Assembly: GCA_958295755.1 (NCBI GenBank)
Contig: OY282367.1
Location: forward strand, 268,294-332,293
From: an uncultured Acidimicrobiales bacterium
GTDB lineage: Bacteria; Actinomycetota; Acidimicrobiia; Acidimicrobiales; Hopanoidiivorantaceae
Length of the DNA stretch: 64,000 bases
Direction: 5' to 3'
The position numbers and the translations under genes were made by a program. Positions 6,433-37,158 of this stretch are shown piece after piece; positions within the stretch are counted from its first letter, which is position 1; the number at the start of each line of letters is the position of its first letter. A model generated the notes under the pieces. The model ran no database searches, was not told the DNA's origin, and saw only the letters and a program-made list of their open reading frames with translations.

Positions 6433-7518
6433 ATGACCCATAAAGTGCAGGGCATCATCGCCCTCGAGAAGAATGCCCCAGTTAGTCTGGAGACGGTAAT
6501 AGTGCCCGACCCAGGCCCCGGTGAAGTGCTAGTGGATGTTCAAGCCTGCGGAGTCTGCCACACCGATCTGCACTACCGCCAAGGCAACATCAACGATGAT
6601 TTTCCGTTCTTGCTCGGCCACGAAGCGGCAGGCGTGATTGAGGCGGTTGGCGAAGGCGTGACCTCCGTTACGGTCGGCGACTTCGTGATATTGAACTGGC
6701 GGGCAGTGTGCGGCGGTTGCCGTGCGTGTGCTAGAGGGCGTCCGTGGTATTGCTTCGCCACTCACAACGCGCAGCAAAAGATGACGCTAGAAGACGGCAC
6801 CGAGCTGTCGCCTGCTTTGGGCATCGGGGCGTTCGTAGAGAAGACTTTGGTAGCGGAGGGTCAAGCAACCAAGGTAAACCCCGAAGCTTCGCCTTTGGCG
6901 GCAGGGCTTCTGGGCTGTGGCGTGATGGCTGGACTAGGTGCTGCAATCAACACAGGGGGAGTAGGGCGAGGCGACTCTGTGGCAGTTTTCGGTTGCGGCG
7001 GGGTGGGCAATGCTGCGATTGCTGGTGCTGCACTGGCTGGGGCTACGACTATCATCGGCGTAGACATAGACGACAGAAAACTGGAATGGGCGCAAGGTTT
7101 CGGTGCGACTCATATCATCAATTCTCGCCAGATCGACCCCGTAGAGCGCATCCGTGAGCTGACCGACGGCAACGGCGTGGATGTGGCGATTGAAGCTATT
7201 GGCTTGCCAGAGACATACCAGCAGGCGTTTTTTGCGCGTGACTTGGCTGGCACAGTGGTTTTGGTGGGCGTTCCTGCTCCAGATATGAAAGTGGAGCTGC
7301 CATATATTGAGATATTCGGGCGGGGCGGGGCGTTGAAGTCGTCATGGTACGGCGATTGCTTGCCGAGCCGGGATTTTCCGATGCTGATAGATCTCTACAT
7401 GGAAGGCAAGCTAGATTTGGACGGCTTCGTTAGCGAGACGATTGGCATCGGCGATGTGGAGGAAGCGTTTCACAAGATGGAGCGAGGCGAGGTGTTGCGG
7501 TCTGTGGTTGCGTTTTGA
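6433..7518 (+). CDS. mscR: S-(hydroxymethyl)mycothiol dehydrogenase-like zinc alcohol dehydrogenase
   Basis: This is probably the mycothiol-dependent formaldehyde dehydrogenase/nitrosomycothiol reductase, which oxidises the formaldehyde-mycothiol adduct with NAD. The 361-residue product has the catalytic-zinc segment [13 protein letters not shown] (about residue 38), GHEAAG (about 62), the structural zinc cluster [15 protein letters not shown] (about 94-108) and the Rossmann motif GCGGVG (about 188). [24 protein letters not shown] and the C-terminal [19 protein letters not shown] closely match actinobacterial MscR proteins rather than glutathione-type ADH3. A strong AGGAGG precedes the ATG. 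It implies that the organism makes mycothiol. It overlaps the next gene by 4 bp. Confidence 0.88.
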
Positions 7519-8369
7519 GCGATTTTTCTGTTGTGGTATTGGCGGCGGGGTTGGGGTCGCGATTTGGGGGCGATAAGCAGCTGGCAGAGATTGGGCCAAA
7601 TGGCGAAAGCTTTTTGGATTACAACATTGCGGGGTGTATGGAAGCTGGGGTGAAGAATGTGGTGATGGTGGTGCGTAGCGACATCAAAGATGCAGTTGTG
7701 GCGCATGTGGCAAAACACCATGAAAGTGCCGAGAGTTTTACCTATGTGTGCCAAGACGAGTTCGGGCCGTCTCGTGCTAAGCCTTGGGGAACAGCTCATG
7801 CTGTTTTGGTAGCTAGAGAAGCGGTGCCGGGGGCGTTCATGGTGGTGAACGCCGATGACTACTATGCTGCTGAGACATTTCACATGCTGCGAGAGATTTT
7901 AGACATCGGTTTTGAGCATCAAGGCGGGTTGCTGGGGTTTCCGCTGGTTAATACTTTGCCCCCCGTTAATACTTTGCCTCCCAAAGGTGGCGTAACGCGA
8001 GGCATATGTAGAGTATCCGATGGTTATCTAACAGGCATAGACGAAACAAAAGGCGTTCACGCCACAGCAGAAGGCATTTTTGACGGAGACGGCCAAGAGC
8101 TTTCGCCTGATACCTTGGTTTCTTTGAACCTCTGGGGTTTTCCAGGTGCCTTTATGGAAAACCTGCAGCAATTCTGGAGCGACTTCCACACTCAACACGC
8201 CGACGATCCAGATGCCGAATGCCTACTCCCCGATGCCGTAGGCGCAACCATAGCCACAGGAGAGTTCGAATTCCGTGTCCGCCCCTGCGAATCCCGCTGG
8301 GTGGGCGTAACCTACGCCGACGATCTAGCAGCCGCCCAAGCAGCTTTCACCACCGGCCGCCCTGATTAG
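7515..8369 (+). CDS. Nucleotidyltransferase-like protein (NDP-sugar pyrophosphorylase family)
   Basis: The N-terminus [19 protein letters not shown] is the nucleotide-binding signature of sugar-phosphate nucleotidyltransferases, and VVNADDYY is the metal-binding motif. The family transfers a nucleotidyl group to a sugar phosphate; the substrate here is unknown. The protein is 284 residues. It starts with TTG at 7515, overlapping the previous stop, so translational coupling is likely. An 18-bp perfect in-frame duplication (7947-7964 and 7965-7982, one mismatch) inserts VNTLPP twice before KGGVTRG. Base use is G-rich in the first part and C-rich in the last third. Confidence 0.75.
7947..7982 (+). 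repeat. 18-bp in-frame tandem duplication
   Basis: GTTAATACTTTGCCCCCC is followed immediately by GTTAATACTTTGCCTCCC. It encodes VNTLPP twice within the nucleotidyltransferase-like gene. Confidence 0.95.
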
Positions 8370-8800
8370 TGGCTAATTGGGTCAGGATGGAATTGATGGA
8401 GAGAGTGTTTGACAAGGTTGGGGGGTATGAGTTTTTTGTGGGGTTGGTGGATGGGTTTTATGAACGGGTGGAGGGGGATCCTGTTTTGCGACCGTTGTAT
8501 CCGGAGGGGGAGGATGGGCTTAGGGCATCACGGGAGCATTTAGCTTTGTTTTTGTCGCAGTATTGGGGCGGGCCGCCCGTCTATAACGAGACACGAGGTG
8601 CACCTATGCTACGGGCACGACATTTGCCGTTTCGGATCGGGGTGGCCGAGCGGGACGCTTGGTTTGGGCATATGAAGGCTGCTGTGGAAGAATCTGGGGT
8701 GGCTGAGGAGATTGTCGCCGAACTGCTTGACTACTTCGACAAAGCAGCCACGCACCTCATCAATGACCACGATCTCAATATCGCGCCACCGGCCACCTGA
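8369..8800 (+). CDS. glbO: Group II truncated haemoglobin (GlbO type)
   Basis: TrHbO binds oxygen and is linked to respiration or oxidative stress defence in Actinobacteria. The 143-residue protein shows the group II pattern: Tyr B10 in DGFYERV (Tyr31), Tyr CD1 in LRPLYP (Tyr44), the YWGGP segment, proximal His in RARHLPF (His85) and Trp G8 in DAWFGHM (Trp98). The GTG start overlaps the last base of the upstream stop; an ATG at 8387 is an alternative. The first half is unusually rich in G at third positions compared with its neighbours. Confidence 0.9.
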   Translation: MANWVRMELMERVFDKVGGYEFFVGLVDGFYERVEGDPVLRPLYPEGEDGLRASREHLALFLSQYWGGPPVYNETRGAPMLRARHLPFRIGVAERDAWFGHMKAAVEESGVAEEIVAELLDYFDKAATHLINDHDLNIAPPAT

Positions 8801-10199: not shown

Positions 10200-11084
10200 A
10201 TGAGCATTTTCGTAGATGAGAATACCAAAGTCGTCTATCAGGGATTGACCGGCTCACAAGGCCGTTTCTACGGCTTGCTCAACCGCGACTACGGCACGAA
10301 AGTCGTAGCAGGCACCAACCCCAAGAAAGCCGGTACCGATGTAGACGGCATCCCCATCTATGCGACTGTCGGCGATGCCGTAGAAGCCACGGGAGCGACT
10401 GCCTCGTGCGTGTTCATCCCCGCCCCGGGTGTGAAGTCAGCCGTGCTGGACGCTGCTGAGGGCGGCGTGGATTTCATCGTGGTGATCACCGAAGGCGTGC
10501 CGATGCATGACGAAGCTTGGCTGTTCAACAAGCTCCAACGGGATTATCCCGATGTGCGTCTGCTAGGGCCGAACTGCCCCGGCATCATCAGCCCCGGTAA
10601 GTGCAATATCGGCATCACCGCAGGCCACATAGCCAAAGCGGGCGGCCCTGTGGGGATAGTCAGTCGCTCAGGCACGCTCACCTACCAAGCCCTCTACGAG
10701 CTGAAGCAAAACAACATCGGCTGCACCACCTGCGTAGGCATCGGCGGCGACCCCGTGCCCGGCACCAACTTCATAGACTGCCTAGCCGCCTTCGAAGCCG
10801 ACCCAGAAACGAAAGCCGTGATGATGATAGGCGAAATCGGCGGAGCAGCAGAAGAAGAAGCTGCCGCATTCATCGGCGAGCATATGACAAAGCCAGTAGT
10901 CGCTTATGTGGCAGGTGTAACCGCTCCTGCCGGCAAGAAAATGGGCCACGCCGGGGCCATAGTAACCGGCAACAAAGGCACAGCCCAAGCCAAAATGTCA
11001 GCCCTGAAAGAAGCCGGCGTTCAAGTAGGCCTAAACCCCACCGAAGCCGGCGAGCTAATGGTAGAGGTGGTAGCTAAGCTCTAG
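10200..11084 (+). CDS. sucD: Succinyl-CoA synthetase alpha subunit
   Basis: The alpha subunit forms CoA- and phosphohistidine-binding parts of succinyl-CoA synthetase. The 294-residue sequence shows the CoA-binding start TGSQGRFYG, the conserved [10 protein letters not shown] and [13 protein letters not shown], and the phosphorylated histidine in GHAGAIVTG (His250). It is the natural partner of the upstream sucC. The downstream neighbour is convergent and belongs to the defence island, so this marks the end of the core block. Confidence 0.97.
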
Positions 11085-11139
11085 CATCTCAGCAGAATAC
11101 CAGGTGTGTATAGAGAGATTTTTTTGCCTCGGGCTAGTC

Positions 11140-11499
11140 CTAAGGGTTCATGAATCCGTATTCGCTTAGGCTCTGTTGAAGTTTGGGAATTCCGGTTTTT
11201 ATGGTCTGGTAAAGCTCGATCAACAAAACGTTCTCATAAAAATGGACTATGCTCGTTCTTAGTTCCTTCAGCCACTCAAAGTCAATCTTGTTGTATCTGT
11301 TCCTGCCTGTTTGCGACACATAGGTTGCTGCCTCCCCAACTAACTCAACAGCTTTACCAACTCCTAATTCAAGAAAAACATCTCTGTTTGTATAAGTAAA
11401 AAACTCGTTGCGAGACCAATTTGACAATGGGGACAGTAGCGATACATAAGTAGCCATCATGTCTAAAAGCTGTTCATCACTCATGTCACGAGTGTGCAT
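11140..11499 (-). CDS. hepT: HepT-like HEPN toxin (DUF86)
   Basis: The product is a 119-residue all-helical protein with the HEPN RNase motif R-x4-H-x-Y, seen as RTSIVHFY (Arg81, His86, Tyr88). In the MntA-HepT family the HEPN protein is an RNA-cleaving toxin, and its tyrosine is AMPylated by the MntA nucleotidyltransferase. The gene lies directly downstream of such an MntA gene and overlaps it by 14 bp, the usual order for this pair. Sequence similarity outside the motif is weak. It converges on sucD. Confidence 0.75.
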   Translation of the reverse strand: MHTRDMSDEQLLDMMATYVSLLSPLSNWSRNEFFTYTNRDVFLELGVGKAVELVGEAATYVSQTGRNRYNKIDFEWLKELRTSIVHFYENVLLIELYQTIKTGIPKLQQSLSEYGFMNP

Positions 11500-11860
11500 A
11501 GATAACCTTCGCTTCCCCCAAAATCTGCTGACGAAGGGAGGGGGAGGTTCTCCATGACGACAATCCAGCTTTCGTGATCATGTCGGTTTTGCGTCCTATA
11601 ATATTACCTAACTCACCTTCTGCTCTGAAGTAGTCAGGCAACATCGGCTCGCGCCCTTCTTCAAATACGACCAACACATCAATATCACTAGTGTTGTCAA
11701 ATGTGCCTTTTACCACTGATCCGAATAAGCTCATCTCAGTCACATGCCACTTGAGGCAGAAACTCTCAATGGCTTCCATCGGAAGTTGATGTCGTTGCTC
11801 TGACAGCGTGCTTGTGGTCACACTTCCATTATAGCTATACATGGATTCAGCAATGAGCAA
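11486..11860 (-). CDS. mntA: MntA-like minimal nucleotidyltransferase antitoxin
   Basis: This gene encodes a minimal nucleotidyltransferase with the signature GS-x10-D-x-D (Gly47, Ser48, Asp59, Asp61 from the first possible start), reading LFGSVVKGTFDNTSDIDVLV. MntA antitoxins AMPylate their HEPN partner. The listed TTG start at 11860 is probably too far upstream. A TATAAT at 11833-11828 (minus strand) suggests that translation begins at GTG 11821 or at ATG 11779, just before EAIESFC. A similar gene occurs at 18369-18683. Confidence 0.78.
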   Translation of the reverse strand: MLIAESMYSYNGSVTTSTLSEQRHQLPMEAIESFCLKWHVTEMSLFGSVVKGTFDNTSDIDVLVVFEEGREPMLPDYFRAEGELGNIIGRKTDMITKAGLSSWRTSPSLRQQILGEAKVIYAHS

Positions 11861-11872
11861 GACAGTTTGCAG

Positions 11873-11936
11873 GCGGCTAAGCTTTCAAGCTGTATGACAT
11901 TATTTTCGCAGCAATCTGAGCTTGCCAGCGATGGTA
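11873..11936. repeat. Leader repeat, copy A (shared with 19330-19393)
   Basis: About 64 bp spanning GCGGCTAAGCTTTCAAGCTG, the ATG and the first codons (MTLFSQQSELAS) recur at 19330-19393 with roughly 85 percent identity by eye. Here the leader opens the separate type ISP C-terminal gene. In the other copy it opens a short fragment. Confidence 0.9.
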
Positions 11937-12604
11937 GTGGTGCTATGGAGGATGTTGATAATATTACCGACTGGTGTTTGGGTGAGTTTCAGACCCGCTA
12001 CGACAACCCAGCTATCACCAAGGACGACATCTGGGAGTATCTTTATGGTGTGATGCATGCTCCTGATTGGCGTGAGAAATATGCTCATGATCTTCAGCGC
12101 AGCTTGCCTAGGGTGCCGCTTGCTGCTGACTTTGAGGCGTTTTGCGAAGCAGGTCGCCAGCTTATGGACTTACACATCAACTTTGAGACGGTGCCTGAGC
12201 ATTCGCAGGTCGTCTGCTTTGTAGACGGCAGTGCGGACGAAGGCTTGAGCGATCCTGAAGCCTACAGAATCCAAGGCCGTATGCGCTGGGGCAGAAACCC
12301 CGAAACAAAAAAACGAGACGACTACACTGTCTTGGAAGTCAATTCTCGTTGTCTGCTTTCTTTCATTCCTATTGAGGCGCAAAACTATACAGTCTCAGGC
12401 AGATCGCCATTGGATTGGGCTATCGACAGCCTCCGCCACAAAGAAGATAAACCCTCTGGCATCACCGACAACCCCAACGGCTGGTATATCTGGGAAGATG
12501 AGCCGTTTAATCTTATTCGCCATCTCCGCAGGCTTGTATTTGTGAGCACTGAAAGTGCCCGCATCATCTCGCAGTTGCCACCGTCGCTGGCTGAGCAGAA
12601 ATAG
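11894..12604 (+). CDS. Detached C-terminal domain of a type ISP restriction-modification enzyme
   Basis: The product corresponds to the C-terminal portion of single-chain type ISP enzymes: NITDWCLGEF..., ITKDDIWEYLYGVMHAPDWR, LPRVPLAADFEAFCEAGRQL, DLHINFE, and the end YTVSGRSPLDWAIDSLRHK, SGITDNPNGWY, IVFVST-like ARIISQLPPSL. In relatives this region follows the methyltransferase part and contributes to target recognition. Here it is its own gene, upstream of and in the same direction as the enzyme body (12644), which lacks it. ATG at 11894 (MTLFSQQ) is preferred because the same leader is copied at 19351. An in-frame TTG at 11867 is possible. It may act in trans. Confidence 0.8.
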   Translation: MTLFSQQSELASDGSGAMEDVDNITDWCLGEFQTRYDNPAITKDDIWEYLYGVMHAPDWREKYAHDLQRSLPRVPLAADFEAFCEAGRQLMDLHINFETVPEHSQVVCFVDGSADEGLSDPEAYRIQGRMRWGRNPETKKRDDYTVLEVNSRCLLSFIPIEAQNYTVSGRSPLDWAIDSLRHKEDKPSGITDNPNGWYIWEDEPFNLIRHLRRLVFVSTESARIISQLPPSLAEQK

Positions 12605-12643
12605 CCCCGCGCCCTACTTAAGCCCTGCCCTGAAACTCTCCCT

Positions 12644-15600
12644 ATGCCTAACCTCCACGAAACTATTGAACGCCTGAAGGAAGGCGATCCGTCTTCTGCT
12701 GTTTTAGGTCGCAGGTTTGAAGTTTTTGTCCAGGATGTTTTCAAGCGGCATCCAGGCGAGTACGGCAAAGAGCGATTCGCCGAAGTGTGGCTGTGGCAAG
12801 AGTGGCCCGACCGTGAGAGCTACGGTTATAGCACCGACTACGGCATCGACATTGTTGCCAAGCAAACTGATGCCTACGGCGGCGGTCTGTGCGCCATCCA
12901 AGTAAAGTTCCGCAGCACCGGCGGTGAAGTTTCAACCCAAGAAGTCAGCAACTTCCTTTCTGCGGTAGGTGGAGCTTTCTCATCTTCGTTGCTTGTGGCG
13001 TCGGCACCGATTGCCGGCAAGGGTGTAGACAAAATCCGTAAAGCCTCACCTCGCTGCGAAATTCTCCATACTGCTGAGATGGACACTTGGGTAGATGACT
13101 GGGCTGATTACTTGAGGTCTCCTCAAGATTTTGAGATACCGCCTCCGCCGAAGCACGAACTTTACGATTTCCAGAGGGATGCTGTGCGAGATGTGGTCAA
13201 AAAACTCTCAGACTCTGATCGCGGTAAGTTGATCTTGCCGTGTGGCACAGGCAAGTCGTTCGTGGCACTTCGCATCGCCGAAGAACTTGCCGGCAGAGGC
13301 GGGCGGGTGCTCTATCTCGTGCCCAACATCGCCCTTGTGGGCCAGACGATGCGCGAGTGGTCGGCGCAACGCAGCATCACGTTGCAATACTTAGGTGTCT
13401 GTTCTGACTCTACGGCTGGTCGTAAGGCTTCTGAGCGGGCCGATACAGCTGACGATCTCACCGAGCTAGCTATACCTGTTACTACTGACCCGGTAAAAAT
13501 CCGGAAGCAAATCACAGAGCCTGTGGCAGATGGTGTGATGCAGGTGGTATTTAGCACGTATCATTCTTCGCCGAAAGTCAAAGAGGCTATGGAGGCTGGT
13601 GGTGAGTTTGATCTGATTATCTGTGATGAGGCGCACAGAACCACTGGCATAGACAAAGGCACTGGCACCGACAAAATAGAAGGCTATGAGTCGTACTACC
13701 AGATAGTCCATCACGACCGCCACATCTCAGCCAAACGGCGGCTTTATATGACTGCTACTCCTAGAGTGTTCGCTGAGCGCGCTAGGAAAGATCTAGCCGA
13801 AGGCGAAGACCCCGACTGCTACGACATGAATGATGAGAGCGTCTACGGTGAAGAGATCTATCGGATGTCGTTCGGCGAGGCGGTGGAGGCTGGGCATCTG
13901 ACTGAGTATGAAGTGCTGGTGATAACCGCGAGCCAAGAAGCGTATCTGCAATCCATCGGGGGGGGGTCCCACGAATTGATATTCGGGGAAGACTCCGAGA
14001 CTTCCCTCAACGATGCTGTAAAACTCGCAGGCTGCTGGGACGCCCTGGCATCTCCTTTGACCACCGAAATCTCCGAATGGTTGCCGGGGCAAATACATGA
14101 GGAAGGTGGTGAGCCTTCTCGCTCAGCCATCGGTTTCACTAACAGGGTTGCTACCAGCCAGTTCGTAGCCGAAAAGTGGGAGACAGTCGCCAAGAGCATC
14201 GCAAGCAAGGCGGCTGATCCCAAATTTAAACCTGAGGCAGTCATGCAGACGGGGCCAAGTGGGGAACAAATCCGCACAATAGGGGAAATCGATTACCCAG
14301 ATTTCTCAGTTAGCAAAGCTCCCCGTAGTGCTTTTTTGCGTATAGAAGTTGGCCATGTGGACGGCACCACTCCTGCTGCTGAGCGAGTGAAACACCTCAG
14401 ACGACTAGAACAAGACCGATACGCGGCAGACATCTGTCAAATCATAACTAATGCTCGTGTGCTCTCCGAAGGTGTGAATGTGCCGAGTTTGGACGCTGTG
14501 TTATTCCTAGACCCTCGCAGCAGCCAGATAGACATCACCCAGCAAGTTGGCCGTGTGATGCGCCGCGCCCCCGGCAAAGACAAGGGCTACATAGTCATCC
14601 CGGTAGTCGTGCCCGAAGACGCCGACCCACGCGAGCAACTACAAGCCAGCGATTGGAGCACCGTGTGGCAGGTGGTGAAAGCCCTGCGCTCACACGATGA
14701 GAGGCTCAACTACTACATCAACCAGCCCGATGCTTGGGCGCAGAACGCTCCTTTCTCGGTGCGAGCAGCAAGGCTGGGCGAACCCGAGGGGGATCCCAAA
14801 AAACAGCAAGAAACATACAGACAGCTCCATCTGGAACTCAGCCGTGAGATCGCTTCCAAAGTGGTAGAAATGTGTGGCGACCGGCAAACATATCCCACTT
14901 GGGGCCGCCGGGCAGCCGAGGTTTGCGCTCAAATTCAAAAGCGGGTTGAATATCTAACCAGCGAGGGTGGTCTTTGCGAAGACGCTTTTGTGAAGTTCCT
15001 TGAGGGAATCCGAGCGTCAGTGCGCGGCGAGGTTGAAGTAGCAGCAGCACAGCAGATGATCGCCCAGCACATCGTGACTATCCCCGTGTTCGACGCCATG
15101 CTAGGCAAAAACGAGTTCTCTCAGCACAATCCCGTGAGCAAAGAGATAGAGCGACTGCTAGTTGAGTTCAAAGCCAAAGGCGTGAGCTTCAGCGGCGAAA
15201 TCAAGCCTCTCACCCGCGCCTATCAAAACATGAGCGAAGCATTTGAAGGAGCAGTAGAAGGCTCAGCCCGGCTAGACATCTTGCGCCAGATATATGACGG
15301 CTTCTTCAAAGAAGCAATGCAAGACGAAGTAAAACGGCTAGGGATTGTCTATACCCCCGTAGAGATAGTAGATTTCATGGTCCGCTCCGCCGCTGCCATC
15401 TGCCAAAAAGAGTTCGGCAGAAGCCTCAGTGATGAAAATGTGCACATTCTGGACCCTTTCTGCGGGACCGGCACTTTCTTGACACAGCTGTTAGAACTGC
15501 GGGACGGCAATGGTGAATACATCATCGGAGACGAAGACCTAGACAGGAAATACCATCACGAACTACACGCCAACGAACTAGTGCTACTGGCATATTACAT

Positions 15601-17221
15601 AGCTGCTCTGAAGATAGAAGAAGCGAAGCACATGAGAGGTCTTGAAGCTAGCAAAAATATTGGCTACCAGCCATTTGATGGGATTTTATTGACTGACACT
15701 TTTCTAAATCCACCAGAGCAGGCTTCGTTCACAGATTATCTTGGCGAAAACATCCAAGGGCGTCTCAGACAAGACCAGATCCCTATGACAATAATTTTCA
15801 GTAATCCTCCTTGGTCTTCGGGGCAGAAATCTTCAGGTGATGATAATCCAAACATTGAGTACGAGGAGATTTCAAATAGAATTAATGCCACCTATGGAGT
15901 TAAACAGTATGAAATCACTGGGAAACCCAAAGGTGGCAATGCCTTTGGCAACCTATATTTAAAAGCCTTGAGGTGGGCAACAGACAGGATACTTCCCACC
16001 GAAGATAGAGACGATAACCCCGCAATTATAGGGCTAGTCCATCCGAACTCTTTGACAGATGCAACATCACTGGCTGGAGTTCGCGCAACGATGCGAGAAG
16101 AATTCTCTGACATCTATGTGGTGAACCTGCGAGGTAATGCCTACAAAGCAGGTGAAGAATTCCGAAAAGAAGGTGACAAGATTTTTGGTGCAGGTTCCCG
16201 CAATGGGGTGCAGATAACCTTTCTAGTCCGCAATCCCAGCAAAGATCTGTCTGAAGCAGCCACTTTGCACTATGCCCAAGTGCCCGACAGGATGAGTTTG
16301 GAACAAAAATTCAGATGGCTCAGAGACTTGGATGATATAACAAATTCTAAATTAGAAGAAGTACCGCTGAATCCTCAACACGATTGGGTAAATATTAGCG
16401 ATGGAACATATGAAAATCTAATGCCAGTATGCGATAGCGATCGCAAGAATCCTAATGTTTTTGCAACAAAGCATGCAAATGGCGTAGCAACAGCCTGTGA
16501 TGTTTATGTGTATTCATTCAGTAGGCGTGCTCTCGAGGAAAAAATTCAAAACTTAATTGAAGTTTACAACGAAGCTTTAGATGATGTGGACTGCGGTTTA
16601 GCGACCATAGAGACAGCCACTCAGAACACCCAACTAGAAGCCATCAAATGGACCGAAACCCTTAAGAGCTCTTTCAAGCGACGTGAACAAATTGAGTTTG
16701 ACCCTAATCGAATGCGCGAAGTTTTGTATCGTCCTTTCACAAAACTTTGGCTCTACGAAGACGACCGTATTCTGTCTCGTGTGAAAACTATTCTATCTAT
16801 ATTCCCCAGAGATGCGGATGTCGAAGCTTTCGAAGTCACAGGGGGCTCAAATAATAGTAGCCCTGACAGTCTGATGGCTGTTGATGGTATTTCAGATTTG
16901 AATAGTATAGGACCGGGACGGGGGGGGGTCGCGTCATTGCAAGACGGCGATTCTCACAACCAGCGGCAGCAACATGATTTTCCAGACACTCGCGACGAAC
17001 CTGCTGACCGATCTAGCGGCGATCAAGGGATCCCAACAGACCAGGGTGATACCGCGAGCAAAATAGGCGGGGGGGGGGGTGCCTGCAAAGACATTCTCAG
17101 AACAACAATTCTCGTCAGGTGCGACAACCAACTCCCATTCACAACCTTCGCGACCAGCACTCTCCCAGACCTCCACATCACCGGACGCCCAACCCGCAAC
17201 CTCCCCAGATATCAATTCTGA
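12644..17221 (+). CDS. Type ISP restriction-modification enzyme body: nuclease-helicase-methyltransferase
   Basis: Type ISP enzymes are single-chain, translocating restriction-modification proteins. The 1525-residue frame has an N-terminal Mrr-like nuclease (GIDIV with Asp69, then IQVK with Gln86 and Lys88), an SF2 helicase (LPCGTGKS near 200, ICDEAH near 326, YMTATPRVF, QQVGRVMRRA), a coupler, and an N6-adenine methyltransferase (DPFCGTGTFL near 940, FSNPPW near 1053, YRPFTKLWLYED near 1370). The expected C-terminal domain is missing and lies upstream at 11894-12604. Residues after about 1395 run through poly-G tracts and a cassette array. In this assembly the frame ends in cassette 2 at 17221. 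A further G9 tract lies inside the helicase (13958). Confidence 0.9.
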   Translation: MPNLHETIERLKEGDPSSAVLGRRFEVFVQDVFKRHPGEYGKERFAEVWLWQEWPDRESYGYSTDYGIDIVAKQTDAYGGGLCAIQVKFRSTGGEVSTQEVSNFLSAVGGAFSSSLLVASAPIAGKGVDKIRKASPRCEILHTAEMDTWVDDWADYLRSPQDFEIPPPPKHELYDFQRDAVRDVVKKLSDSDRGKLILPCGTGKSFVALRIAEELAGRGGRVLYLVPNIALVGQTMREWSAQRSITLQYLGVCSDSTAGRKASERADTADDLTELAIPVTTDPVKIRKQITEPVADGVMQVVFSTYHSSPKVKEAMEAGGEFDLIICDEAHRTTGIDKGTGTDKIEGYESYYQIVHHDRHISAKRRLYMTATPRVFAERARKDLAEGEDPDCYDMNDESVYGEEIYRMSFGEAVEAGHLTEYEVLVITASQEAYLQSIGGGSHELIFGEDSETSLNDAVKLAGCWDALASPLTTEISEWLPGQIHEEGGEPSRSAIGFTNRVATSQFVAEKWETVAKSIASKAADPKFKPEAVMQTGPSGEQIRTIGEIDYPDFSVSKAPRSAFLRIEVGHVDGTTPAAERVKHLRRLEQDRYAADICQIITNARVLSEGVNVPSLDAVLFLDPRSSQIDITQQVGRVMRRAPGKDKGYIVIPVVVPEDADPREQLQASDWSTVWQVVKALRSHDERLNYYINQPDAWAQNAPFSVRAARLGEPEGDPKKQQETYRQLHLELSREIASKVVEMCGDRQTYPTWGRRAAEVCAQIQKRVEYLTSEGGLCEDAFVKFLEGIRASVRGEVEVAAAQQMIAQHIVTIPVFDAMLGKNEFSQHNPVSKEIERLLVEFKAKGVSFSGEIKPLTRAYQNMSEAFEGAVEGSARLDILRQIYDGFFKEAMQDEVKRLGIVYTPVEIVDFMVRSAAAICQKEFGRSLSDENVHILDPFCGTGTFLTQLLELRDGNGEYIIGDEDLDRKYHHELHANELVLLAYYIAALKIEEAKHMRGLEASKNIGYQPFDGILLTDTFLNPPEQASFTDYLGENIQGRLRQDQIPMTIIFSNPPWSSGQKSSGDDNPNIEYEEISNRINATYGVKQYEITGKPKGGNAFGNLYLKALRWATDRILPTEDRDDNPAIIGLVHPNSLTDATSLAGVRATMREEFSDIYVVNLRGNAYKAGEEFRKEGDKIFGAGSRNGVQITFLVRNPSKDLSEAATLHYAQVPDRMSLEQKFRWLRDLDDITNSKLEEVPLNPQHDWVNISDGTYENLMPVCDSDRKNPNVFATKHANGVATACDVYVYSFSRRALEEKIQNLIEVYNEALDDVDCGLATIETATQNTQLEAIKWTETLKSSFKRREQIEFDPNRMREVLYRPFTKLWLYEDDRILSRVKTILSIFPRDADVEAFEVTGGSNNSSPDSLMAVDGISDLNSIGPGRGGVASLQDGDSHNQRQQHDFPDTRDEPADRSSGDQGIPTDQGDTASKIGGGGGACKDILRTTILVRCDNQLPFTTFATSTLPDLHITGRPTRNLPRYQF
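13958..13966 (+). repeat. G9 tract (T0) inside the helicase domain
   Basis: Nine consecutive G read as three glycine codons in LQSIGGGSHE. Gain or loss of one G would shift the frame and remove the helicase C-part, methyltransferase and cassettes. In this assembly the tract is in the ON length. Confidence 0.9.
16830..16919 (+). other. Cassette 0: in-frame copy ahead of the first array tract
   Basis: In the enzyme's own frame, EAFEVTGGSN...PDSLMAVDGISDLNSIG resembles the cassette motif (ILxTxxSN...LAT..L.DL....G). It lacks the R-x-IPR end, which is replaced by the G9 tract at 16920. It would be present in every frame variant. Confidence 0.6.
16920..16928 (+). repeat. G9 tract (T1)
   Basis: First array tract. 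With nine G the enzyme frame passes through cassette 1 as nonsense-free filler to T2. Loss of one G or gain of two would enter cassette 1. Gain of one or loss of two would end at the TGA at 16975-16977. Confidence 0.92.
16929..17066 (+). other. Cassette 1 (frame: codons start at 16929)
   Basis: Reads SRHCKTAILTTSGSN, then FQTLATNLLTDLAAIKGS and RVIPRAK, followed by TAG at 17064-17066 just ahead of tract T2. It is one of seven copies of the type ISP segment that normally precedes the C-terminal domain. Confidence 0.85.
17069..17079 (+). repeat. G11 tract (T2)
   Basis: Second array tract, preceded by AAATAGGC. Entering in the enzyme frame with eleven G leads to cassette 2. One extra G leads to cassette 3, and one fewer leads to the open third frame that runs to T3. 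Confidence 0.92.
17080..17221 (+). other. Cassette 2 (currently in frame with the enzyme)
   Basis: Reads ACKDILRTTILVRCDN, PFTTFATSTLPDLHITG and RNLPRYQF, then TGA at 17219-17221. This is the C-terminus of the 1525-residue protein in this assembly. Its end overlaps the start of cassette 3 by 16 bp in another frame. Confidence 0.85.
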
Positions 17222-17337
17222 TAACGACCCCGTCAAGCGTGGCGAAAGTGACGGTACTGGCATCAGTAGTTCTAGCGGACCTTCACTGCCTGTCGGGGAT
17301 AAACGCAGCAAGAGCGATACCGAGAATCAAGAAATAG
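17206..17337 (+). other. Cassette 3
   Basis: Reads QISILITTPSSVAKVTVLAS, VVLADLHCLSGIN and ARAIPRIKK, then TAG at 17335-17337 ahead of T3. The frame is open back to T2, giving a Gln/Pro-rich lead-in (QPTPIHNLRDQHSPRPPHH). Confidence 0.85.
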
Positions 17338-17339
17338 AC

Positions 17340-17349
17340 GGGGGGGGGG
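17340..17349 (+). repeat. G10 tract (T3)
   Basis: Third array tract, preceded by AAATAGAC and followed by TGCCTGCAAAG as at T2. From the open frame, cassettes 4 or 5 are entered by length change, and an unchanged length continues to T4. Confidence 0.92.
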
Positions 17350-17350
17350 T

Positions 17351-17488
17351 GCCTGCAAAGCCATTCTCATCACAACCCCATCCAACAAGGCAATCTTCGG
17401 AATTCTCGCGAGCAGAATTCTCGGAGACCTCTGCGCAGTCGGAACTCAACAAGCCAGCCGAGCAATCTCAAGAAAACGATCATTCTGA
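17351..17488 (+). other. Cassette 4
   Basis: Reads ACKAILITTPSNKAIFGILA, SRILGDLCAVGTQQ and SRAISRKRSF, then TGA at 17486-17488. Its start is nearly identical in DNA to that of cassette 2. Confidence 0.85.
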
Positions 17489-17598
17489 CAGGCCCCTCCA
17501 ACATGGCACTCTTCGGAACCCTAGCCACCCTCCAGCTTCCCGACCTTCACTCTATGGCAGCCGGCCAGCAGACCAGGGTGATCCCCCGAGCGAAATAG
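17473..17598 (+). other. Cassette 5
   Basis: Reads KTIILTGPSNMALFGTLATL, QLPDLHSMAAGQQ and TRVIPRAK, then TAG at 17596-17598 ahead of T4. Its end is nearly identical to that of cassette 1. It overlaps cassette 4 by 16 bp. Confidence 0.85.
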
Positions 17599-17600
17599 AC

Positions 17601-17610
17601 GGGGGGGGGG
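17601..17610 (+). repeat. G10 tract (T4)
   Basis: Fourth array tract, preceded by AAATAGAC. With ten G the open frame coming from T3 leads to cassette 7. Loss of one G leads to cassette 6. Gain of one reads past the array to a TAG at 17906-17908. Confidence 0.92.
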
Positions 17611-17763
17611 TGCCGTTGCCAAGCAATTTGGGTGGCATGTCCTTCCAACACCAGCGTCTTCACGACACTCGCGACCAACATCCCCGGCGATCTCAAAGCA
17701 GCTGGAATCAACCAAGCCAACCGAGCCATCTCCAGAACCAAACAAATCGCCCCAGCATCCTAA
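17611..17763 (+). other. Cassette 6
   Basis: Reads CRCQAIWVACPSNTSVFTTL, ATNIPGDLKAAGINQ and NRAISRTKQIAPAS, then TAA at 17761-17763. It overlaps the start of cassette 7 by 19 bp. Confidence 0.83.
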
Positions 17764-17882
17764 TCAACCAAACTCAGCAGCTCCCCTTCACAACCTTAGC
17801 AACCAATCAACTATTCGACCTCTGCGCCACCGGTCGCCAAACCCGCGCCGCACCCCGACGCCTAATAGAAAGCGGTTGTTAA
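17745..17882 (+). other. Cassette 7, last of the array
   Basis: Reads NRPSILINQTQQLPFTTLAT, NQLFDLCATGRQ and RAAPRRLIESGC, then TAA at 17880-17882. Its frame is open from 17079, crossing T3 and T4 without a stop (a 267-codon frame rich in Ser, Gln and Pro). Confidence 0.83.
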
Positions 17883-18376
17883 GTCGGCTCGACTGGTGCG
17901 AGATCTAGAGCTTTATCTCGAAAGGGTTTCAAATCCTCAGAGAAGAACTTGTTATATCTCTCCCCGTCTATCTGCTGATATTGGTCGTAATGCGAAGCTA
18001 GGTCGGATGTCTCCTCAATCCACATCAGGGTTTGCTGTGAAAAGTTTCGCCTGCCAGCAGGGCTCAACCCCCGCACAGCATTGCCCAATCGGATGATAGG
18101 AAGAAGTGAAGCATAGTAAGTCTTGCGACAACTCCAGTCGGGGGTCTCTATTAGCAATTCTGGATGATCTTCACCGCAATCAATGAGATCATTAGCATAT
18201 TTGAGAATATCAATAAAAAAAACTGCATCACTGTGATCTGTCATGTTACATAACCTCCTAACAACATCCTTACCGGCAGCCAGCCAATCTTCATAAGAGT
18301 GGAAGTGACTGACACTCTGCATTACCTCAAGCCCCAGATGCAGAGCGTCTTGCATGCGGATTTCCCGCTCATCCAT
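17879..18376 (-). CDS. Unknown protein paired with a MntA-like nucleotidyltransferase
   Basis: I do not recognise this 165-residue family. It is predicted to be mostly helical, with one cysteine pair region and no HEPN R-x4-6-H-x-Y motif (HYDQY near residue 130 is not the motif). It starts 8 bp inside the end of the MntA-like gene at 18369, so it occupies the position a HepT toxin normally takes. It may be the toxin or target of that nucleotidyltransferase. Its end overlaps the end of cassette 7 on the other strand by 4 bp. The coding choice rests on the overlap with mntA and the absence of a better frame. Confidence 0.65.
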   Translation of the reverse strand: MDEREIRMQDALHLGLEVMQSVSHFHSYEDWLAAGKDVVRRLCNMTDHSDAVFFIDILKYANDLIDCGEDHPELLIETPDWSCRKTYYASLLPIIRLGNAVRGLSPAGRRNFSQQTLMWIEETSDLASHYDQYQQIDGERYNKFFSEDLKPFRDKALDLAPVEPT

Positions 18377-18683
18377 AAATCTTGACGGCTCCTTCCAGTA
18401 TATATTTTCGCAGTAGCCAGTTGTGGCTCTCTCGCAAAGCGTCCATATCCACCAAGTCCACTTCCCGTCCGAATACAGAACTCAAAGCTTCGTCCCTGTC
18501 CACAACGAGCTCGATCTCTGCAGGCAAATTCCTCCCACGCTGGTACTGAACCAGCACATCCACATCGCTGTCAATGGCAAAATCACCACGGGCCATCGAC
18601 CCGAAGACCCACATCTCAGCCACCCCCCACTCAGAGCAGAAGTGGGTCAGAGCGTCAGTGTCGTAGCATAGCTCGTTCTCCAT
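18369..18683 (-). CDS. Second MntA-like minimal nucleotidyltransferase
   Basis: The 104-residue protein shows GS-x10-D-x-D in VFGSMARGDFAIDSDVDVLV (Gly28, Ser29, Asp40, Asp42), followed by VDLVDMDAL and a C-terminal ILEGAVKIYG typical of minimal nucleotidyltransferases of the MNT/HEPN type. It is related to, but distinct from, the copy at 11486-11860. It is translated first, ahead of the unknown gene at 17879-18376. An antitoxin-like AMPylase role is inferred from the family. Confidence 0.8.
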   Translation of the reverse strand: MENELCYDTDALTHFCSEWGVAEMWVFGSMARGDFAIDSDVDVLVQYQRGRNLPAEIELVVDRDEALSSVFGREVDLVDMDALRESHNWLLRKYILEGAVKIYG

Positions 18684-18714
18684 AAGCTTTAGGATAGTAG
18701 CGTCTGTAGGAGAC

Positions 18715-18825
18715 TAAACAGAATCTGTCCAATGACAACCTAGCTATCACCAAAGATGACATCAGGGAGTCATGCCTTCAGGTAGTCGCTCAAAACTGGG
18801 CGTGGCATCGACTCGTCAAAAAGTA
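18715..18825 (+). pseudogene. Remnant of the type ISP C-terminal domain
   Basis: The plus strand encodes DNLAITKDDIRESCLQVVAQ and WAWHRLV, which match DNPAITKDDIWEYLYGVMHA and WREKYA of the complete domain at 11894-12604. At DNA level GCTATCACCAAAGATGACATC differs from the intact copy at two third positions. There is no start and the rest of the domain is gone, so this is a decayed copy at roughly the place where the enzyme's own C-terminus would be expected. Confidence 0.75.
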
Positions 18826-18831
18826 GTAAGA

Positions 18832-19242
18832 CTATTTCTGGTTGGTGGCATGAACATTGGTGGCATGGGCTATGGCCTCCCGCAATGTGGAGATTATGTC
18901 ATTGTGGTCTATCCAAGGGAAATCTGTTTCGAATTCTGATAGAGGCGACCCGCCGATGAAGTAGTCGGTCAGCACATAAAATGGTACGCGAGTGCCTGGA
19001 AAGCACGGAGACCCGCCCATGCGTTCAGGATCTATAGAGAGTGAGCTGTACTTCATTTGTTTTAGTTCGTCGAGGGCGGTTTCCACATCTTCTCGTTCAA
19101 CTTCAGGATGCTCCGCTAAGAAGTCGTCTAGTGTCGCCTGTGCGATAATTGCCTCTATTACGGCAGACAGTGGCACATGGGTGTCATGAAAGCAAGGCGT
19201 GCCGCCTAGAATTTCTGGAGTTGAAACTAGTTGGTGTGTCAT
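18832..19242 (-). CDS. Tandem DUF433 protein (antitoxin-like)
   Basis: The 136-residue protein consists of two DUF433 units in a row. The first is VSTPEILGGTPCFHDTHVPL (about residues 6-60) and the second is LSIDPERMGGSPCFPGTRVP (about 67-122). Each has the GG[ST]PC[FI]xx[TR]R/HVP core followed by a helical LxEFxxxFPxxxxxDIxxAL part. Single DUF433 proteins are winged-helix-like and often act as antitoxins of PIN-type (DUF5615) toxins. No such toxin gene is adjacent here. It sits alone among other TA-like genes. Confidence 0.8.
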   Translation of the reverse strand: MTHQLVSTPEILGGTPCFHDTHVPLSAVIEAIIAQATLDDFLAEHPEVEREDVETALDELKQMKYSSLSIDPERMGGSPCFPGTRVPFYVLTDYFIGGSPLSEFETDFPWIDHNDIISTLREAIAHATNVHATNQK

Positions 19243-19329
19243 TTTCTATGGTCGTGCAGAGAGACTGTGGAAATAGTTATTCTGTCATTCTAGTAGCCCT
19301 TGCTAGCAGAAAAGAAAAGTATTTGACAA

Positions 19330-19473
19330 GCGGCTAGGCTTTCTAGCCGTATGACATTATTTTCTCAGCAATCTGAACTTGCCAGCGTCGGAATTCTCAG
19401 GACCAGAACCCTGGGAGATCTTGTCGCACTCGGACCCCCAAGAGTTTTCCCCAAGTTCCTCAGCAAAGACTAG
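19330..19473 (+). pseudogene. Leader repeat copy B fused to a cassette fragment
   Basis: Positions 19330-19393 copy the leader at 11873-11936. The ATG at 19351 opens a 40-codon frame: MTLFSQQSELASVG, then ILRTRTLGDLVALGPPRVFP and KFLSKD, with TAG at 19471-19473. The second half fits the type ISP cassette motif (compare ILASRILGDLCAVG in cassette 4). The leader here contains an inverted repeat CGGCTAG/CTAGCCG. It could be a stored donor cassette or debris from a duplication. Confidence 0.65.
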
Positions 19474-19484
19474 CTCACTAAGTC

Positions 19485-19850
19485 CTAATTTTTAAGGGAT
19501 TTTAATTCGTTGATGTATTTCTTCCATCTAGTGGTGTCTTCTGTTTCTTGATTGCCTTTGAAAAAAATTTGAATAAAATCTACTAGTTCGTCATTTTCAA
19601 AATAGGCATAAACTATACGAAATGGTGACTTCTTAACTGAAAAACTTGCCATACGAGTTTTGATTATACAAATTCCGTCCTCCTCATGCAGGATGGAAGT
19701 GTTTTTGTTCCTAGCAGTGCGAGGTTGCTTTAATCTGTAATTTACGAACTCCTTGAGTTTCAAGAAGTCACTCGGTAGAGTCCGATATTTTCTTGCCAGC
19801 TTTTCGAAATCTCTAGTAAAGAGAGTATATTCCTCTTTAAAGTTCATCAT
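19485..19850 (-). CDS. RelE-like candidate toxin next to a Panacea antitoxin
   Basis: The 121-residue protein ends with a beta-rich segment, SFSVKKSPFRIVYAYFENDELVDFI followed by QIFFKGNQETEDTTRWKKYI, which resembles the core of RelE/HigB-type interferases (strand-strand-helix with KSPFRIVY). The N-terminal part is helical and basic. It begins 14 bp inside the end of the Panacea-domain gene, suggesting coupled translation. The function is inferred from fold-like pattern and position. Base composition is AT-richer than neighbours. Confidence 0.6.
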   Translation of the reverse strand: MMNFKEEYTLFTRDFEKLARKYRTLPSDFLKLKEFVNYRLKQPRTARNKNTSILHEEDGICIIKTRMASFSVKKSPFRIVYAYFENDELVDFIQIFFKGNQETEDTTRWKKYINELKSLKN

Positions 19851-20346
19851 ATTCTGCTACAGATGTATCTTCGTTCCGATAGCGAGCGTCTCTGTAGTCG
19901 AGAATATCACCGTCATTTGCGATTATCCAAGGGTAATCTGAGTGCGAATAGTCTGAAATTTTTGTAGCATTCATATCAGAAAACCGATCAAGTGTCCAAT
20001 CTATATGAGCTATATCATCAGCAGAGAGCTGGTCCATATTGGGGTCGCGAAGGGAGCGGAAACACCTTTGCTCATACGATCCTCTTGGCTCTATCCAATG
20101 TTCTACTTCGTTGTTCACCACCATCTCATGCAAGACTTCATCAAGGTTGACCATCGTAGGTCCAAAGTGATTCTTTTTGTATTGCCCACCAAGAAAATAT
20201 TCTTCGTGAATCTCGTAGTAATCGAAATCCATGAAATACAAGAGTTTATGCAAGACGGTTTCGCCCACATTAGGCTTATCGGCTGTTGCTCGTAGAACAT
20301 AGAGCAAAACCTCTTTGAGTTTGGCTACATCTTGCAGCGTGGTCAT
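19837..20346 (-). CDS. Panacea (SocA/DUF4065) domain antitoxin
   Basis: The core VLHKLLYFMDFDYYEIHEEY, then FLGGQYKKNHFGPTMVNLDE, is the Panacea/DUF4065 signature (KLLYFADF...G..Y....GP). This domain neutralises many unrelated toxins. The ATG at 20346 lies six bases after GGAGGT (20353-20358); GTG at 20352 is the alternative. The C-terminal part has an acidic, Tyr/Asp-rich extension. It is first in a two-gene operon with the RelE-like gene, behind a near-consensus promoter. Confidence 0.8.
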   Translation of the reverse strand: MTTLQDVAKLKEVLLYVLRATADKPNVGETVLHKLLYFMDFDYYEIHEEYFLGGQYKKNHFGPTMVNLDEVLHEMVVNNEVEHWIEPRGSYEQRCFRSLRDPNMDQLSADDIAHIDWTLDRFSDMNATKISDYSHSDYPWIIANDGDILDYRDARYRNEDTSVAEYDEL

Positions 20347-20370
20347 TGGCACACCTCCTCTCTGCCCTCC

Positions 20371-20399
20371 ATTATAACACTCATGGTTGCAAATGTCAG
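20371..20399 (-). promoter_or_regulatory. Near-consensus sigma-70-type promoter of the Panacea TA operon
   Basis: On the minus strand CTGACA (20399-20394), a 17-bp spacer and TATAAT (20376-20371) are followed about 20 bases later by the Shine-Dalgarno GGAGGT. The leader is therefore very short. Confidence 0.8.
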
Positions 20400-20453
20400 C
20401 ACATTATGCCTTGAGGGTATGAAGAGGAACTCTAGTCCATACAGCCGCTCAGA

Positions 20454-20478
20454 GGGGGGGGGAGGATCAGGGGGGGGG
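20454..20478 (+). repeat. Two G9 tracts in a divergent intergenic region
   Basis: G9 at 20454-20462 and G9 at 20470-20478 are separated by AGGATCA. They lie between the Panacea operon promoter (minus) and the membrane protein gene at 20615 (plus). Their length could alter promoter spacing for the plus-strand gene. The rest of 20400-20614 holds nothing recognisable. Confidence 0.9.
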
Positions 20479-20614
20479 CTTGGAGAGAGCGATGGGAGGG
20501 GAATCTGCTGATGCACTCGGTGTGGCTACGGCGCGGCTGTGGTAGCTGGAGGAAGCGATAGAGGCGAGAGTTTTGTGATGTTGGTTGAAGTTGTGCGGGT
20601 TAATACCATAGCCT

Positions 20615-37149: not shown

Positions 37150-37158
37150 GGGGGGGGG
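37150..37158 (-). repeat. Poly-G/C tract (9) in the pckG leader
   Basis: Nine consecutive G on the plus strand (C9 in the mRNA sense of pckG) lie 46 bases upstream of the pckG ATG and just after the stop of the cold-shock-like gene. Confidence 0.9.

Follow-up and report, generated by a model that had tools for sequence, protein, structure and literature searches.

The locus described here lies in a stretch of 64,000 nucleotides (the window) from an uncultured Acidimicrobiales bacterium, contig OY282367.1. It comprises a type ISP restriction-modification gene whose recognition domain is divided between two open reading frames (ORFs), together with an array of short homologous cassettes and tracts of G. 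The main ORF, at 12644-17221 on the plus strand (as are the other features of the locus unless stated), encodes 1525 amino acids as sequenced. An earlier note, made from the letters of the sequence alone, had named it a type ISP gene, and that identity, which rests on homology, agrees with both comparisons: a Pfam scan matched Mrr_cat_2, ResIII, ISP_coupler, N6_Mtase and Type_ISP_C, and the best relatives of solved structure are LlaGI (E 2.3e-197) and LlaBIII. The motifs LPCGTGKS, DEAH, DPFCGTG and NPPW can be read in the translation. From its N-terminus the protein is ordered as Mrr nuclease, superfamily 2 (SF2) helicase, coupler, N6 methyltransferase, N-terminal half of the recognition domain, linker and cassette 2.

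The gene departs from the single-polypeptide layout of type ISP enzymes in its recognition domain. Positions 5-144 of the Type_ISP_C model are matched in the main ORF, and positions 161-335, the core helices and guide, in a separate upstream ORF at 11894-12604 (E 2e-44), which encodes 236 amino acids from its ATG in a reading frame open from 11867 and which aligns to LlaGI chain residues 1211-1401. The match in the main ORF stops at the start of the omega hairpin and Loop VI, the base-reading elements, and the one piece that lies between the two halves of the model is supplied, several times over, by the array. Because the remainder of the domain is encoded apart, upstream, a cassette is the natural C-terminus of the main protein.

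The array of cassettes and tracts

Seven cassettes of about 38 residues, each with its own stop, are arranged behind four tracts of G, and in both respects the claims of the earlier note were borne out. Against a cassette profile seeded in part with them, all seven score 55-76 bits, and by eye they are seven different sequence types. What that note had missed at this end of the gene is an eighth, in-frame cassette 0 (16835-16977), a hairpin running into the first selector tract, G9 at 16920-16928, which ends ...DLNSIGPGRGGGRVIARRR... if this tract is one unit longer (modulo 3). Cassette 1 (16950-17066; Loop VI ...DLAAIKGSQQTR...) is followed by the second selector, G11 at 17069-17079, and then by cassette 2 (17108-17221; DLHITGRPTRNLPRYQF), selected in the sequenced state, and cassette 3 (17218-17337; DLHCLSGINAAR). 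The third selector, G10 at 17340-17349, precedes cassettes 4 (17366-17488; DLCAVGTQQASR) and 5 (17482-17598; DLHSMAAGQQTR), and the fourth, G10 at 17601-17610, precedes cassettes 6 (17629-17763; DLKAAGINQANR) and 7 (17757-17882; DLCATGRQTR), the last coordinate of cassettes 1-7 being in each case that of the stop. Overlaps of 16, 16 and 19 bp between paired cassettes had been given, and these did not hold: the profile boundaries give 4, 7 and 7 nt, the start of a cassette being a matter of definition.

When tract lengths are enumerated modulo 3, nine outcomes result, namely cassettes 1-7, cassette 0 and one that ends at 17908, so that the frame logic originally proposed for the tracts reaches seven of seven cassettes. 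The last outcome corresponds to the frame said to be open beyond the array; its tail (17883-17908) is an empty slot without a cassette, and the matching slot at a second locus in the same genome, described below, is occupied by one. The pass-through frames encode polar linkers, with a hydrophobic fraction of 0.17 as against 0.44 in the cassettes. Each tract is a simple sequence repeat able to alter the reading frame when its length changes, as in phase variation of the simple-sequence-repeat kind.

Two further features had escaped the earlier note: the upstream ORF with the other half of the recognition domain, and a G9 tract at 13958-13966 in the helicase part of the main ORF. Tracts occur near the same residue (about 440-454) at related loci L014, L015, L019 and L141, and G tracts in the methyltransferase part of the main ORF at L013 and L018. 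Tracts in either place would switch the whole enzyme on or off, and the window's G9 is likely to be such an ON/OFF tract.

To place the cassette within the recognition domain, a chain joined from pieces of the window (N-terminal half, cassette and C-terminal half) was aligned with solved structures, and the alignment was repeated with a second cassette. Cassette and C-terminal half align as one stretch to LlaGI, LlaBIII and 7lo5, which we take to be DrdV; the N-terminal half forms a separate aligned stretch, and cassette 0, at its end, overlays the cassette position in LlaBIII and 7lo5. The cassette maps to LlaGI chain residues 1182-1216 and to LlaBIII from 1342 onward. With the published residues H1368, G1372 and Q1373 taken as LlaGI chain 1204, 1208 and 1209 (an offset of 164, by our own count), it takes in both the omega hairpin (1347-1358) and Loop VI (1365-1374) of LlaGI. 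The base-reading residues reported for this region are H1368, G1372 and Q1373 in LlaGI and N1360 in LlaBIII, target position +3 being read by H1368 (as G) and N1360 (as A) (PMC4872093). Among 120 cassettes gathered from all loci, 40 have H at the +3-reading place, 21 have C, 18 A, 16 N, 13 S and 8 K, the remaining four rows being wrongly parsed.

Recurrence, frame phase and selection

A second locus in the same genome has the same split, with tracts of G9, G10 and G10, six cassettes and a main protein 46-49% identical to that of the window, whereas the two arrays are 89.6% identical over 316 nt. The design was found at 24 further loci, giving a total of 120 cassettes at 26 loci, the window included. 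This search for homologous loci with tracts at the same boundaries had been suggested in the earlier note, and it returned varied repeat units; in the 22 arrays that were scored the frame logic is preserved. With the C-terminal-half ORF as query, 23 loci were recovered, 14 of them with cassettes (named Acidimicrobiia or untyped metagenome-assembled genomes). Of 298 genomes of the order, 16 had two or more cassettes by the cassette profile, 7 had one weak match and 275 had none; among 395 genomes drawn from the class, the order included, 11 had matches, from five families.

At 24 of the 26 loci the C-terminal half lies outside the main ORF, and at the other two the contig ends first; its ORF is upstream on the same strand at 7, divergent at 3, downstream at 14 and beyond the contig end at 2. 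At some loci the first tract lies no more than about 45 residues from the '..FP' that opens the hairpin, or where cassette 0 ends, and at the remainder it lies shortly 5' of the first cassette. The units of the first tract are G9-G15, C14, (GA)7-20, (AC)14, (CA)13, (TC)20 and (CGAA)14, with (GTCC)9 at L016 and (GA)24 at L064, and no repeat unit before the cassettes is divisible by three. A relative in the same order, L066, has an uninterrupted recognition domain with a single Loop VI, and for this reason the split array is probably the derived form. In the same genus, L063 (G001:C48) is a fused type ISP gene with apparently two hairpin segments in one ORF and C9 tracts nearby, at about 7400-8600 in the orientation of the main gene; it is possible that this represents an evolutionary intermediate between the single-loop and array forms.

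The spacing of the cassettes is strongly phased. Of 69 neighbouring pairs, 67 are spaced 2 modulo 3, a step of -1 frame, and this holds across 15 different spacings; the binomial probability would be 1e-29 if the loci were independent. These pairs are neighbours without a scored tract between them, and some of the spacings are shifted by the profile start; one of the two exceptions stretches across a C7 run, and the other comes from a profile start that extended back into a G10.

Synonymous shuffling, which keeps every cassette protein and its frame, provides a second comparison with chance. In the window array, where a codon-shuffling check had been proposed, all seven cassettes were reached in only 0.2% of 500 synonymous-codon shuffles, the mean being 1.83. 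Over the 22 arrays the actual tract lengths reach 99 of 104 cassettes, against 47.0 ± 4.3 (maximum 60) in 500 shuffles. These arrays come from 21 loci, L009 contributing two; L010, L016, L017, L064 and L137 were left out on account of contig ends or a run of N. L133, L135, L140, L142 and L143 were set aside altogether, their contigs having the same lengths as those of L024, L015, L012, L010 and L009, respectively; L021 has no cassette in view, and L139 was dropped from the counts because it and L016 share a contig. Of the 22 arrays, 13 lead to a cassette whatever the tract state, if the broken one of L011 is counted; L011 reaches 5/5 in the shuffle test, in which arrival at a premature stop was counted, and 4/5 by plain enumeration. 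The ratio of nonsynonymous to synonymous substitution rates (dN/dS) is 0.16-0.24 in the cassettes' own frame and 1.0-3.3 in the other two, over seven cassette families, one of which has two rows only: purifying selection acts on the cassettes in the frame that encodes them and in no other.

Public protein sequences contain natural variants of the same kind. Of 213 homologous proteins 120 are listed, and among these 100 end in a cassette and 12 in the cassette-0 form, the class of some low-scoring rows being arbitrary; their linkers include HTHTHT, RERERE and PPP, together with probable pentanucleotide ones recognised from the peptide alone. Over 794 residues protein P0013 matches P0027 at 99.9% identity and P0014 at 99.4%, and each of the three has a different cassette at its C-terminus. 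All three read '...SDLNNLRGGG', the first G run, at which P0027 ends in the cassette-0 form; P0013 and P0014 share sequence past this run and part at the next, into a C-type as against an H-type cassette. The first of these splits is what slippage predicts, and the three frames of the window show the same pattern. Tract lengths also vary between close relatives, as in L014 (GA20) and L141 (GA7), which are 94.5% identical over 1.5 kb. The tandem copies at L009 (10001-20639) are 89% identical and carry G13/G13 and G15/G14; their cassette order differs, and recombination therefore reshuffles cassettes over longer times. In front of the second main-gene copy at L009 there is no more than a fragment of the C-terminal-half ORF.

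Proposed selection by slippage and its rivals

That slippage picks among alternative C-termini, as the earlier note had proposed, is the best reading of the recurrence, the own-frame selection and the near-identical proteins that part at a tract. We put at roughly 85% the probability that the locus encodes a split type ISP enzyme in which repeat slippage likely selects one C-terminal cassette from as many as eight, the target base being predicted to differ from one to the next. Slipped-strand mispairing at replication would change the length of a tract, and the descendants of one cell would come to carry different cassettes. The chosen cassette would dock into the recognition core, the separate C-terminal polypeptide would complete the recognition domain in trans, and the residue after an Asp-Leu pair (H, N, A, S, C or K) would set the base at target position +3 (LlaGI numbering). 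With the C-terminal half moved to its own ORF, the variable segment stands at a free C-terminus and would therefore be swappable by frame choice alone. Since methylation and restriction depend on the same recognition domain, lineages would likely benefit by altering the specificity of both at once. Held less firmly, though still as a likely account, is a more general picture in which the three frames of one stretch of DNA act as a decoder: serial repeats would serve as base-3 dials arranged as a decision tree, the leaves of which are homologous DNA-recognition modules, often with no OFF leaf, the split enzyme freeing its C-terminus, and some eight heritable specificities would arise by slippage alone, a self-diversifying immune repertoire across Acidimicrobiia.

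Several observations weigh against the proposed selection by slippage. The start of the upstream ORF has, by eye, no obvious ribosome site. For P0088, a natural product, the AlphaFold model is of low quality, with a mean predicted local distance difference test (pLDDT) score of 60.8 and values of 22-31 in the cassette, and is uninformative about docking of the cassette. One outcome in the window, that ending at 17908, lacks a cassette; cassette 2 of L011 carries a premature stop; and five of the 104 cassettes are unreached by scored tracts (one in L020, two each in L132 and L136, the last two arrays having C7 runs below the tract cut-off). Because the loci share descent, the chance statistics overstate independence. 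Eight of the 120 listed public proteins end otherwise than in a cassette or the cassette-0 form, P0013 is truncated at its N-terminus, and some of the frame differences among public proteins, which are predicted from assembled sequence, could have arisen as assembly errors at homopolymers. The second split, between P0013 and P0014, could be due to frame or to recombination; and P0002 and P0020, with bodies 98.0% identical, differ in cassette 0, an exchange which means that recombination acts too.

Other explanations accept the cassettes and give them a different use. Cassettes selected by slippage might tune activity, stability or assembly rather than sequence specificity, as the linker before the cassette, which runs from about 10 to about 280 residues among the window outcomes, might suggest; this is improbable, given that the cassette corresponds to the part of two solved enzymes that reads the bases, that its variable residue is the +3 reader, and that the Helicobacter pylori precedent discussed below alters specificity. 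Slightly less probable is a choice made in RNA, by transcriptional slippage or ribosomal frameshifting, which would give several C-termini per cell and leave DNA tract length of minor importance. Di-, tetra- and (from peptides only) probably pentanucleotide repeats are found near the same boundary, and slippage on such repeats in transcription should be difficult. Near-identical predicted proteins, moreover, already differ in genomic frame, and multiple specificities in one cell would all need simultaneous protection. In its favour, RNA-level bypass of homonucleotide runs, G and C included, is documented (PMC3812077).

A shade less probable again is a silent store of cassettes that recombine into the expressed position, with the repeats as hot spots of recombination or replication. 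The close match of this genome's two arrays beside their diverged main proteins would follow from it, as would the changed cassette order in L009 and the P0002/P0020 difference. Such a reservoir requires neither the -1 frame step nor open pass-through frames, and both are kept; nor is a recombinase among the seven ORFs scanned. Hardly credible, finally, is that the array is the frameshifted debris of tandem duplications in a decaying gene. Remnants do lie nearby, one of the C-terminal-half ORF at 18734-18770 (89% identical over 37 nt to 12002-12038) and another at 19327-19473 that joins the leader of that ORF (90% over 61 nt) to a degenerate cassette (18.8 bits), and one cassette of L011 is broken. 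We reject this explanation for the array on the spacing phase, the reachability and the dN/dS values, to which recurrence in several families of the class may be added.

Two other candidates were also discarded. A shufflon, or site-specific inversion, is contradicted by the lack of a recombinase among those seven ORFs and of fitting inverted repeats in 11000-20500, where there are only two inverted pairs, weak (24-25 nt, 72-75%) and outside the cassettes. A plasmid origin was set aside when the array was unmatched in 72,556 plasmid records. The C-terminal-half ORF was likewise unmatched in viral contigs, searched with exact peptide patterns.

Further tracts and remnants were seen in this genome and at related loci. 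A degenerate cassette remnant resembling 19327-19473 lies about 10 kb from the second locus (G000:C1:1104707-1104873, minus strand). Long G/C tracts occur just upstream of or inside the C-terminal-half ORF at L008 (reverse complement 1510-1520), L009 (9876-9893) and L061 (2966-2976, in the orientation of the main gene), and that subunit may therefore be phase-variable too. The genome (2.29 Mb) has 30 distinct tracts of at least ten G, six of them in or beside the two ISP loci, which make up 0.5% of the sequence. Some of the others lie in an HsdM-like methyltransferase (L096), in an Eco57I/MmeI-like methyltransferase ORF close to its 3' end (L098), in a leucine-rich-repeat protein (L080) and at the start of similar ORFs whose N-termini resemble signal peptides (L081-L083); phase variation may be common in this genome. 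The window has more G9 tracts at 20454-20478 and 37150-37158. The flanks of the locus resemble toxin-antitoxin genes, with a HepT-like/nucleotidyltransferase pair at 11140-11860 (minus strand) on one side and, on the other, a nucleotidyltransferase beside an unassigned ORF, plus a DUF433 protein (17879-18683 and 18832-19242, both minus strand).

Comparison with known switching systems

The R64 shufflon and invertible hsdS loci provide many alternative C-termini or specificities from one locus by recombinase-driven site-specific inversion. The window locus resembles them in its many C-termini and differs in using reading frame and repeats. In domain order it follows LlaGI and LlaBIII, whose omega hairpin and Loop VI are the counterpart of a cassette; those enzymes have a single uninterrupted recognition domain with one Loop VI, and repeat tracts are not mentioned in the excerpts available (PMC4872093). 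In the Type I system NgoAV the length of a poly-G tract in hsdS alters recognition specificity, as proposed here, but between two forms, a truncated and a fused subunit, without cassettes (PMC9577141). C-terminal phase variation, a term used for Helicobacter canadensis (PMC2823697) and Neisseria gonorrhoeae (PMC5320596), likewise involves a tract near the 3' end that switches C-terminal residues between three frames. Its tails are mostly short (1-61 amino acids in most of the rows seen) and, in the excerpts, are not described as homologous, whereas here there are homologous modules of one domain, several per gene, behind serial tracts.

The closest precedent is two-state switching in H. pylori Hpy99XIV. 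In the Type IIG enzymes JHP1272 (Hpy99XIV) and HP1353-HP1354 (HpyAXVI), a homopolymer-gated, added C-terminal copy was found by experiment to change specificity, and the added segment seems to displace the homologous part of the recognition domain, altering the motif (PMC3936762). The window locus shares with them a late homopolymer that decides whether a recognition-domain-like C-terminal segment is added, and its gated segment is homologous to the base-reading part of the domain, as in the Hpy99XIV type. It may also share the division of labour between an earlier tract acting as an on/off switch and a later one governing specificity, the G9 at 13958 being the candidate for the former. In H. 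pylori there are two states, one added domain and a demonstrated change of specificity; here there are up to eight cassette outcomes, four tracts, a split domain in a type ISP enzyme and a predicted change of specificity.

A 2025 review, which also names shufflons, gives phase variation two, occasionally three, states (PMC11868660). Repeats alone would here give three to eight outcomes per locus, nearly all of them different cassettes on one enzyme rather than ON and OFF. In the titles, abstract openings and excerpts seen of the open-licence PubMed Central (PMC) literature, no other case was found of a gene with multiple homologous cassettes placed in alternate frames after serial repeats, or of a type ISP enzyme with its recognition domain divided as it is here. 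The earlier note, whose author knew the combinatorial form from no described system, did not name the two-state precedents of the principle. The natural set of Loop VI cassettes offers a test of the proposed type ISP recognition code, and the design shows a way in which uncultured bacteria may vary their phage defence without a recombinase. The principle, then, is known from the two-state systems, and several homologous modules in overlapping frames lie far out on that same branch.

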